Origin: Kordiimonas aquimaris
GTDB taxonomy: Bacteria; Pseudomonadota; Alphaproteobacteria; Sphingomonadales; Kordiimonadaceae
Assembly (NCBI RefSeq): GCF_025574485.1
Contig: NZ_JAOBPO010000002.1
Span: forward strand, 746,501 to 810,500
DNA: 64,000 nt
Direction of reading: 5' to 3'
The position numbers and the translations under genes were made by a program. This document shows positions 5,041-54,808 of this stretch, one piece after another. Under the pieces are notes generated by a model that searched no databases, was not told the origin of the DNA, and saw only the letters and a program-made list of their open reading frames with translations. Every line of letters starts with the position of its first letter. The first letter of the stretch is position 1.

Positions 5041-6320
5041 GTGCTGACCAGCTCCTGAGTTTGCGGTGCGCGCCTCAGTACAACAAGCGCAATGAAACGA
5101 AATATGATGGGCATTAAAGCGTAAAAGAAAGTCAGGGTAAAAAGCTGTGTTTCCGAGTTTGAACCTGTTTCATTAAAATCAACAAGATCAAGCACAGGGA
5201 AAGCAAGGCCCATCGGCACAATGAACGCCAGCTTGGAAACTGCGTTTTTGACTGCCAGATAAAGACCGGCAAGTCGGTTCTTACCGTCTTTCTCTTCAGC
5301 ATATACAATATCAGCCAGCATGGACGTTGGCATAATGGCATCTGCACCGAATGCGGCGCCAATCACCACCGACAATACGGCCATACCAACAACGTCACCG
5401 TGCCCCAAAAATGGGGTAATCGAGAGAATAATACAGCAAGTTATGATGGCCGCGCGCCACGCTGCAATTTTGCTGAACCGCTTTGATATCATCACCCAAA
5501 CAGGCAGGAACAAAGCAGATGATAGTAGGGTAAGCCCAACAAATGCCCCGACAAGTTCCGGCGCCCCTATAACATGAGTGATAAACAACACAGCAAGTCC
5601 CGCTGACAAGGCATTAGCTGATTGAATAATCAGGAATGTGAGCACAAGATTTCTATATGCCGGGCTGGCGAGTATCATTTTCAGTGAGGCTGGCATGGTG
5701 ATGCGCGGCGCAGTAACGGGCCTGTATCCGCCGGGTACAAAAATCAAAAATGATGCCAAGCCTACAAAACATAACACAATCATGATCTGCGCGATCAGGC
5801 CAAGGGCGGCCGGTGTCGGCAATGCAAAAACAAGCGGAATAACGGCGACTGTCAATGCGCCAATCACCTGAAACACCGCTTTGGAACTCGCCAGTAATGA
5901 CCGTTCGTGAACGTGCGGTGAAATCTCTAGCCCAATAGAAGAATAAGGCACATCAAGCGCCGTATAAAACAGGAAATACATACCGCTTGCTATCAACAGG
6001 TAGATCAAGCCTGCGCCTTCAGGCGGCGCCAGCAATAACCAGATTGACACACTGAATGCCGGCGCTCCCAGCACAATCCACGGCCTGCGTGGCCCCCAGC
6101 GTGTGCGGGTTTCATCGCTCAGGTAACCAATCAACGGGTCCGTCACCACATCAAACAAACGCCCAGCTACAAACACACCGCCAACAAGGCCGAGGCCAAG
6201 TCCCATATCCACAGCATAAAAAGTTGGAATAAACACGACAAACGCAAAACTTGCCATGGCAAGCGGGGTTGTTAACACACCGAAACAAATCAATTGCCAC
6301 AGTGTAAATGACGCTTCCAT
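5037..6320 (-). CDS. MFS transporter of the glycoside-pentoside-hexuronide:cation symporter type
   Basis: The 427-residue protein has about twelve transmembrane helices. The cytoplasmic loop DVVTDPLIGYLSDETRTRWG, followed by PRRPWIVLGA, is typical of MelB/GPH symporters. The ATG at 6320 (MEASFTLWQLICFG) places the first helix directly at the N-terminus. The frame is open for another 108 codons upstream, but that stretch is charged, non-conserved and runs into the intergenic and sulfotransferase regions. The stop overlaps the start of the hybrid kinase. The substrate (sugar, glycoside or organic acid) cannot be decided from sequence. Confidence 0.85.
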   Translation of the reverse strand: MEASFTLWQLICFGVLTTPLAMASFAFVVFIPTFYAVDMGLGLGLVGGVFVAGRLFDVVTDPLIGYLSDETRTRWGPRRPWIVLGAPAFSVSIWLLLAPPEGAGLIYLLIASGMYFLFYTALDVPYSSIGLEISPHVHERSLLASSKAVFQVIGALTVAVIPLVFALPTPAALGLIAQIMIVLCFVGLASFLIFVPGGYRPVTAPRITMPASLKMILASPAYRNLVLTFLIIQSANALSAGLAVLFITHVIGAPELVGAFVGLTLLSSALFLPVWVMISKRFSKIAAWRAAIITCCIILSITPFLGHGDVVGMAVLSVVIGAAFGADAIMPTSMLADIVYAEEKDGKNRLAGLYLAVKNAVSKLAFIVPMGLAFPVLDLVDFNETGSNSETQLFTLTFFYALMPIIFRFIALVVLRRAPQTQELVST

Positions 6321-52532: not shown

Positions 52533-53450
52533 TCATCCAAGCCTGTACTTAGCTTCAAGTGTTGGCGGGCCTTCACATTGAATGCGGTCATTTTCTTCAA
52601 GTGAAATCATGTGCGCAAGTACCGAGCGAGCGGCTGCCGGATGAAGGCGCTTGTCAACATCCTTGTACATGACGGTGACCAGTTGATCAATTTGCATAGG
52701 GCCGTTTTCAAGGTGTTTAAGAATTTGACCCTCGCGCATGCGCCGGTGAGTTATGATACCTCGAATAAAAGGCGCTGGCTCGTCAACCCAAGGACCGTGG
52801 GTTGGCGCAAGTCTATCCGCATTTAATGCTGCTACTTTCTTCAGGCTGGCAAGATAATCACTCATGTCTCCGTCTGGTGGTGATATTACAGTGGTTGCCC
52901 AGCCCATAATGTGATCACCTACAAATAGTGTGTTTTCTTCATGTAGGTGATAGCAGATGTGATTAGCCGTATGACCGGGTGTGTGAATGGCCTGAAGTGT
53001 CCAGCCATTGCCTGATAATATTTCACCGTCTTTTATTTTCACATCTGGTAAAAATGTTTTATCTGCACCAGCCTCTACTTCTTCTGTATCTAATCCGCCT
53101 TTTCTACCACTGCCATGAGCACCAAATGCATATGTCAGCGCGCCTGTTTTTTCCTTTAGCCAATTTGCCAAAGGTGAGTGGTCAGCATGTGTGTGCGTCA
53201 CAAGGATATGGCTGATGCGGCGGCCATTTAAAGCGTCCAGTATTGCTTGACCGTGCGCTGGCATTAGTGGGCCAGGGTCAATGACAGCGACGTCAGTTTT
53301 GTTGCCTACAATGTATGTACCTGTTCCTGTGTATGTATATGGGCTGGGATTGTTGCACAGCAACCGCTCAATCAGTACAGACATGCGCTCGGCCTCGCCG
53401 TAGTTGGCACTAAAGTCTTGTTTGAAAAGGGAAGGCTGCTCTTCACTCAC
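52533..53450 (-). CDS. LACTB2-like metallo-beta-lactamase-fold hydrolase
   Basis: The 305-residue cytoplasmic protein has the metal motif H86-x-H88-x-D90-H91 (THTHADHSPL), further ligands in IHTPGHTANHICYH and FVGDHIMGW, and a C-terminal winged-helix domain (about residues 225-300) that begins HRRMREGQILKHLENG, as in LACTB2-type enzymes. Eukaryotic LACTB2 is an RNA endonuclease; bacterial activities are not established. The start is GTG, with AGGA about nine bases upstream. Confidence 0.85.
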   Translation of the reverse strand: MSEEQPSLFKQDFSANYGEAERMSVLIERLLCNNPSPYTYTGTGTYIVGNKTDVAVIDPGPLMPAHGQAILDALNGRRISHILVTHTHADHSPLANWLKEKTGALTYAFGAHGSGRKGGLDTEEVEAGADKTFLPDVKIKDGEILSGNGWTLQAIHTPGHTANHICYHLHEENTLFVGDHIMGWATTVISPPDGDMSDYLASLKKVAALNADRLAPTHGPWVDEPAPFIRGIITHRRMREGQILKHLENGPMQIDQLVTVMYKDVDKRLHPAAARSVLAHMISLEENDRIQCEGPPTLEAKYRLG

Positions 53451-53503
53451 TACACTAATCCTAAATACTATTTCATTAGCATGTTAATTAGCATGTTTCA
53501 GGC

Positions 53504-53631
53504 AAAAGAAAACCGGCGACGCTTGGGGTGTTTGGAAAGCAAGCATCGCCGGATTATTGGAAATACGCATACCTTGATGGTTTGACATATATTCAAGTCA
53601 CGCAATCGATGGCAGTCGTTCTGCGGACTTG
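53504..53631 (-). ncRNA. Predicted sigma-54-dependent small RNA
   Basis: The boundaries come from a sigma-54 promoter (predicted start near 53631) and a rho-independent terminator on the minus strand. The RNA would be about 128 nt. Its 5' part can fold as CAAGTC-CGCA pairing with TGCG-T-GACTTG. An AT-rich unpaired middle follows, then the terminator: CCGGCGATGCTT (53552-53541) pairs with AAGCGTCGCCGG (53524-53513) with one C-A mismatch, and TTTTCTTTT ends it. No open reading frame with a ribosome site is evident. The hairpin could instead terminate ispB read-through, but it is about 230 nt past that stop. Targets are unknown. Confidence 0.6.
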
Positions 53632-53640
53632 TAATTACAT

Positions 53641-53658
53641 TCGCAATGGTTGTGCCAA
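53641..53658 (-). promoter_or_regulatory. Sigma-54 (-24/-12) promoter
   Basis: Read on the minus strand, the sequence is TTGGCACAACCATTGCGA. It matches TGGCAC-N5-TTGC exactly, with the diagnostic GG and GC dinucleotides separated by 10 bp (GG at 53656-53655, GC at 53644-53643). It points away from the polyprenyl synthase gene into a gene-free stretch that ends at a terminator. Confidence 0.65.
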
Positions 53659-53728
53659 TATTTTTGTATATATATTACAATGGCTTATAATTTTTTCTGT
53701 ATGACAGTGTTCCATGTTGAACCACGGC

Positions 53729-53770
53729 TGTATCAAAATGAAACAGCATGTGATGCATCAAAATGGGACA
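53729..53770 (-). promoter_or_regulatory. Paired 17-bp repeats, candidate enhancer for a sigma-54 activator
   Basis: TGTATCAAAATGAAACA (53729-53745) and TGCATCAAAATGGGACA (53754-53770) are identical at 14 of 17 positions and spaced 25 bp apart. Each is an imperfect dyad (TGTATC/GAAACA type). They lie about 100-140 bp upstream of the predicted start of the small RNA, the usual place for bacterial enhancer-binding proteins. A perfect palindrome TGATGCATCA overlaps the second copy. Confidence 0.5.
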
Positions 53771-53779
53771 ATTGATGAC

Positions 53780-54808
53780 TTAGTATCCGCGTGCAATACA
53801 AAAATCGACAATATCCAGCATTGCTTTTTTCGCAGGATTATCATTGAAAATAGCAAGCGCGTCTTTTGCCATTTCACCGTAATGCCTAGCACGGTCAAGC
53901 GTTGCAGCAAGTGTTCCGTGAGAATTAAGAATGACTAAAGCTTTATCAAGATCGCCTTCTTTTTGACGGACGGCTTGCATTGTTTGTTTCCAGAATTCTC
54001 TCTCTTCATCAGTCCCGCGTCTGTAGGCTAGGATGACAGGTAATGTGATTTTCCCTTCCTGGAAATCATCACCAACATTTTTACCCATTGTTGCCTGCTT
54101 TGCTGAATAATCCAGTGCGTCGTCAACCAGTTGAAACGCAATGCCAAGATATTTACCGTACGCGCTCAGTGCGGCTTCAACATCTGTTCCTTGATCCGAG
54201 ACGACACCTGTAACCTCGCAGGCCGCAGCAAATAATACCGCAGTTTTGGCCGTAATAACTTCAAGGTATTTTTCTTCGGTTGTGGACAGGTCATTTGCTG
54301 TTGTTAACTGAAGCACCTCACCCTCGGTGATAACCGCAGAGGTATTAGACAGAATTTTGAGTACGCGCAGCGAGTCGCTTTCAACCATAAGCTCAAAAGC
54401 ACGACTAAACAGGAAATCACCGACTAAAACTGTAGGTTGGTTACCCCAAATCAGATTGGCTGTTTTTTTGCCGCGACGCAGCGTGCTTTGATCAACTACA
54501 TCATCATGCAGTAATGTTGCCGTATGAATGAACTCAACGGCCGTGGCGAGACCGATGTGCCGTTTCCCCTCATATCCAATCAGTTTTGCCGCAGCGAGCG
54601 TTAGCATTGGACGTAAACGTTTGCCGCCTGACGAAATAAGGTGTCCCGCAAGCTCAGGGATAAGAGCTACTGGGCTTTGCATGCGCGATAAAATAATCTC
54701 ATTGACAAGATTCATGTCAGCGTTTGTTAGTTCTTGCATTGCATCAATCGCGGTTTGTGCATCTTCCTCAATTGATTTGCTATGCATCGGGACAACATTA
54801 TCTGACAT
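53780..54808 (-). CDS. ispB: Trans-isoprenyl diphosphate synthase (ubiquinone side chain, IspB-like)
   Basis: The 342-residue protein has both aspartate-rich motifs of long-chain prenyl synthases: HDDVVD with D102, D103 and D106, and FQLVDDALDY near residue 230. GGKRLRPMLTLAAAKL binds isopentenyl diphosphate. The small residues ahead of the first motif suit a long product such as an octa- to decaprenyl chain for ubiquinone. GAGAG precedes the ATG. The gene is divergent from the methyltransferase gene across 213 bp, where I see no clear signal. Confidence 0.93.
   Translation of the reverse strand: MSDNVVPMHSKSIEEDAQTAIDAMQELTNADMNLVNEIILSRMQSPVALIPELAGHLISSGGKRLRPMLTLAAAKLIGYEGKRHIGLATAVEFIHTATLLHDDVVDQSTLRRGKKTANLIWGNQPTVLVGDFLFSRAFELMVESDSLRVLKILSNTSAVITEGEVLQLTTANDLSTTEEKYLEVITAKTAVLFAAACEVTGVVSDQGTDVEAALSAYGKYLGIAFQLVDDALDYSAKQATMGKNVGDDFQEGKITLPVILAYRRGTDEEREFWKQTMQAVRQKEGDLDKALVILNSHGTLAATLDRARHYGEMAKDALAIFNDNPAKKAMLDIVDFCIARGY

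Follow-up and report, generated by a model that had tools for sequence, protein, structure and literature searches.

A conserved, predicted small RNA gene of the sigma-54 type and its sister locus in Kordiimonas

Most known sigma-54-driven regulatory RNAs come from the Gammaproteobacteria. The Qrr RNAs of Vibrionaceae, which are activated by LuxO, have sigma-54 promoters with repeated upstream NtrC-type enhancers, are encoded as siblings at separate loci and end in Rho-independent terminators. GlmY and GlmZ of enterobacteria, the sibling RNAs of the QseF/GlrR system, likewise have a sigma-54 promoter, here with three enhancers and IHF (PMC6075780).

We examined a stretch of 64,000 nucleotides (the window; G000:C11:746501-810500) from a Kordiimonas-type alphaproteobacterium, in which a sequence-only reading had proposed a sigma-54-controlled small RNA similar to Qrr. 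This likeness stands only as an analogy: the promoter, the repeated enhancers, the sibling loci and the terminator have counterparts in Kordiimonas. It does not extend to membership of the family: the RNA has no match in Rfam, the spacer gives no Qrr match when E values as high as 5 are allowed, there is no sequence similarity, the loops differ, the host belongs to the Alphaproteobacteria and the activator is probably not LuxO. The enhancers also differ, being palindromes of the form TGTYYCAnnnTGRRACA as against TTGCAWWWTGCAA in Qrr, and no LuxO box (TTGCA-N3-TGCAA) was found upstream. GlmY/GlmZ are alike in having sibling RNAs, sigma-54 and three enhancers with IHF, a likeness of layout only, without evidence of kinship and with an IHF match of 7/9 in the window. 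Their enhancer consensus is TGTN12ACA, glmY adjoins its regulator operon, and neither a sequence relation nor an Rfam match to the GlmY/GlmZ family was found. By the tests made, the Kordiimonas RNA is a member of neither group; in its working it would resemble Qrr and, more closely still, GlmY. The system may thus add an independent case to the sibling-RNA design of Qrr and GlmY/GlmZ: two unrelated-looking RNAs share a control region, and probably a response regulator dedicated to them, throughout an alphaproteobacterial genus and beyond. A search of the open literature, incomplete in coverage, for Kordiimonas and small RNA returned one unrelated paper; the RNA described here and its sister very probably constitute a real, so far undescribed regulatory system.

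Table 1. Features of the small RNA locus and its neighbours in the window
Feature	Position	Strand	Basis or remark
Gene-free spacer	53451-53779	-	Between ispB and MBL-fold hydrolase gene, all on minus strand
ispB, polyprenyl diphosphate synthase (upstream gene)	53780-54808	-	Pfam PF00348; context only
Metallo-beta-lactamase-fold (MBL) hydrolase (downstream gene)	52533-53450	-	Pfam PF00753 and PF17778; context only
Enhancer site 1, TGTCCCATTTTGATGCA	53754-53770	-	-139 to -123; about -114 from promoter T in most orthologues
Enhancer site 2, TGTTTCATTTTGATACA	53729-53745	-	-114 to -98
Enhancer site 3, TGGTTCAACATGGAACA	53708-53724	-	-93 to -77; 13/14 against family motif; conserved at about -68 from promoter T
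IHF-like site, TAAGCCATTGTAA	53675-53687	-	7/9 in window (weak match); position conserved in both RNA families
Sigma-54 promoter, TGGCACAACCATTGC	53643-53657	-	GG at -25/-24, GC at -13/-12; conserved in orthologues
Predicted small RNA, family A, 128 nt	53504-53631	-	Fold, covariance model, no conserved ORF
Hairpin I	53594-53631	-	Inner stem CGA-[CUGCCA]-UCG
Hairpin II	53564-53591	-	Second CUGCCA loop lost in window; kept by most relatives
Hairpin III, intrinsic terminator with TTTTCTTTT	53504-53552	-	Compensatory changes at 11/15 stem pairs

The elements named by the sequence-only reading were recovered in place (Table 1): two 17-bp repeats (14/17 identical, 25 bp apart in register), an exact TGGCAC-N5-TTGC promoter, a 5' stem-loop and a GC-rich terminator hairpin. 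With the C of the promoter at -12, the predicted start falls at 53631, and TGGCAY-N5-TTGC occurs once within the 64 kb. The repeats had been described as an enhancer pair; both sites hold, and the count was one short, as site 3 had been missed. Measured from the promoter T, the three copies lie near -114, -89 and -68 across orthologues, in fixed steps of 25 and 21 bp. The combination had also been judged beyond what each ordinary element would give, and this is borne out by 48 enhancer matches upstream of 18 orthologues (window included), where 1.2 were expected after shuffling. Scored against the general IHF consensus, an IHF-like site at -30/-31 reaches 8/9 in 32 of 41 promoters against 3.7 after shuffling, the window copy scoring 7/9. 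The locus has two of the three features that would mark a sigma-54/bEBP-dependent small RNA, namely a -24/-12 promoter before a non-coding RNA and conserved upstream enhancers; an rpoN-dependent transcript would be the third.

The predicted RNA of the window folds with -44.6 kcal/mol and is unusually stable (z = -6.3). Members of this family, termed family A, consist of two hairpins with a CUGCCA hexaloop and a third, GC-rich hairpin, and the loop stays constant while its stems change freely between species. Variants occur: CUGCCA is found in one hairpin only in G002, G004 and G019, UUGCCU takes its place in hairpin II of a few members, and G022 and G029 have three CUGCCA hairpins. The window copy, the most diverged of its genus family, keeps the loop of hairpin I, with the closing pair changed from G-C to A-U. 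Its U-tract is strong, as in most relatives; in G005, G007 and G011 no good U-tract follows hairpin III, which may therefore have a second role.

Relatives found by an IspB-based search fell in Kordiimonas and Kordiimonadaceae. A BLASTN search of the spacer against 60 relatives gave no match, a result that would by itself have been a false negative, because synteny around the MBL gene, which has orthologues across the genus, recovers the locus. When the DNA upstream of these orthologues was read, the stretch from modA to the MBL gene had this layout in nearly all species. Combining synteny with covariance models, we recovered family A from each of the 20 species sampled within the genus and, outside it, with promoter, from G022 and G029. 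A model built from the other 18 sequences with the window left out matched the window at 53631-53503 (E = 5.5e-5), with no other match at E < 0.4 in 64 kb. Conservation of the promoter and repeats in relatives, the lack of which had been named among the results that would refute the original proposal, was thus found, and a real, conserved small RNA gene of the sigma-54 type is very probably present. Matches to family A outside the bacterial family, for example in G144, lacked the promoter and were rejected. A weak family-A-like RNA in G025 (L297:1501-1616) has neither sigma-54 promoter nor enhancers; this genome also lacks the L084-type regulator discussed below. The neighbourhood itself varies, as modA, which most relatives carry between ispB and the MBL gene, is absent at this place in the window (53754-53780). 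The regulatory unit is intact despite this loss: site 1, which overlaps or abuts the modA stop codon in relatives, here starts nine bases past the stop codon of ispB.

A scan of the whole genome for further repeat-bearing promoters, also proposed at the outset, yielded one. Among 37 TGGCAY-N5-TTGC sites (the last seven judged by eye), enhancers were found only at the window site and at G000:C20:534022-534130 on the minus strand, the locus of a sister RNA, family B. This RNA has the same control region as family A, two loops of sequence UUGCCUGA and a covarying terminator. The covariance model located it in all 20 genus genomes, in six other genomes of the family and in G035 of another family, nearly all matches having enhancers and promoter; a match in G076 was a simple repeat and was discarded. 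Since a convergent gene lies directly downstream in several genomes, family B appears to be a unit of its own. In G030, which belongs to another family of the order, promoters of this type occur at two loci. One, with a UGCCUGA loop, lies elsewhere; the other occupies the modA-MBL position (L236:2997-3290), and its RNA carries a different repeated motif (GUUUAGACACCUU and GCUUAGACACCUU). Comparison across these genomes establishes the promoter, the three enhancers, their fixed spacing, a covarying structured RNA, the two families and the motif at a regulator gene, to which we now turn.

The genome encodes eight full sigma-54 activators: FlbD-, NtrC-, NtrX- and PspF-like proteins, two LuxO-like proteins (L086 and L087), L088 and L084. 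The best fit is the L084-type NtrC-type response regulator (own copy at G000:C1:1014689-1016110, between murI and pntA), because of two independent pointers, the motif at its own promoter and its co-occurrence, for the most part, with family B. The 17-mer motif lies just upstream of the start of all 14 L084-type orthologues, in a similar place over the likely promoter, in a degenerate form with 10-12 of 14 positions. Each family B genome that was checked (G020, G022, G027, G028, G030, G035) has the gene. Of the four genomes of the family that lack family B, three (G023, G025 and G026) lack the gene too; G024 has the regulator and no covariance-model match. Both pointers suggest that the L084-type regulator is probably the activator of both RNAs. 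A relay of the TacA/ShkA type was considered for its identity, and the published account of that relay gave no binding motif. A hybrid histidine kinase gene elsewhere (L234:3118-4758; G000:C11:720117 onward) bears a perfect 14/14 enhancer motif over its likely promoter and is a candidate partner or regulon member of the regulator.

The account we favour, with fair though not full confidence, is that of trans-acting sibling small RNAs under sigma-54 and the L084-type regulator. The spacer would be the gene of one of the two siblings, transcribed on the minus strand by sigma-54 RNA polymerase, with its counterpart elsewhere in the genome. A phosphorylated NtrC-type response regulator would bind the three 17-bp enhancers, and an IHF-like bend would bring it to the promoter, leading to synthesis of both RNAs. 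Through this motif the regulator probably also represses its own gene. The fixed short loops (CUGCCA in family A, UUGCCUGA in family B) would then base-pair with target mRNAs, the mode of action that we predict and consider likely. Within this account we infer transcription, the identity of the regulator, the use of IHF, the pairing and the targets.

With regard to targets, the family B loops are exact complements, over 9-12 nt, of the core CUCUCAGGCAAAAGG of the glycine riboswitch upstream of gcvT, a core present there in at least 17 of 20 genomes (in one case at L403:638-724). Conservation of the core is itself uninformative, because glycine binding holds it constant in all bacteria, and the match of an invariant family B loop to it is suggestive only. 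That family B pairs with the aptamer core and overrides or blocks the riboswitch in trans is a long shot; if true, it would be a new combination of two kinds of RNA control. Sibling RNAs directed at this mRNA have a precedent in NgncR_162/163 of Neisseria, which target the riboswitch-bearing gcvT mRNA at its ribosome-binding site, not at the aptamer core, and for which the part of the account cited here describes no sigma-54 control (PMC13104608). The loop complement CTCAGGCAAAA has 137 matches in 20 genomes against nine for a reversed control. We rejected this enrichment as evidence of targets, as most matches lie within coding sequences; outside genes it recurs only in the gcvT riboswitch core and at one gene start. 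The latter belongs to a TPR-SPOR lipoprotein gene (L382:167-1498, L383:161-1498), where CTCAGGCAAAA precedes the start codon by two bases; this site is limited to G006 and G014. A duplex of family B with this start in G014 was unconvincing (-44.3 against a shuffled mean of -34.4 and minimum of -53.4).

Among other readings, the same small RNA could be activated by a LuxO-type protein in a Qrr-like quorum circuit. LuxO was our first choice given L086 and L087, for which LuxO is the best PDB match by >100 bits and which score 602 and 549 bits against NCBIfam LuxO (602 for the second regulator, below the equivalog cut-off of 800); one of them shares an operon with H-NOX and hybrid-kinase genes, and the enhancer motif resembles LuxO and SypG sites (PMC10162802). 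That operon, however, has its own sigma-54 promoter with two perfect LuxO boxes TTGCAnnnTGCAA upstream, not TGTYYCA, which suggests that these are what L087 binds, and the LuxO-like genes of relatives show no TGTYYCA motif upstream. Nor does their distribution follow that of the RNAs: some genomes that lack the RNAs encode LuxO-like proteins, and G030, in which both promoters are present, encodes none. On these grounds LuxO was demoted, and we regard its role here as unlikely.

It is quite unlikely that the loops bind a protein, as in the sponge RNA CsrB, rather than mRNAs. The repetition of one short loop, two or three times, on changing stems would also be typical of a protein decoy, but two different loop sequences stand under one control, the family B loop has exact complements at gcvT and at a single start codon, and there is no candidate protein. 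A regulated leader or attenuator of the MBL-hydrolase mRNA, in place of a separate RNA, would suit the directly downstream, same-strand position of that gene in most species and the poor U-tract in three genomes. This is very unlikely, given that the genes following family B, which shares this architecture, are unrelated or convergent, that the MBL gene of G012 is about 1.4 kb away and that the U-tract is strong in the window and most relatives. A chance pairing of an ispB terminator with a random promoter-like match would exploit the ordinariness, judged from sequence, of each element by itself; genus-wide conservation and the sister locus already refute it, leaving a practically negligible probability.

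The LuxO-like genes merit a separate description. A single operon (L178:4593-8989; G000:C1, approximately 640590-644990) encodes H-NOX, a GAF hybrid kinase with REC and HPt domains, and the regulator L087. It is an alphaproteobacterial arrangement that recalls the NO-quorum circuit of Vibrio. The second LuxO-like regulator (L179:3593-5020) has a palindrome, TGTTGCAAAATGCAACA, upstream (5095-5111), which recurs in few relatives.
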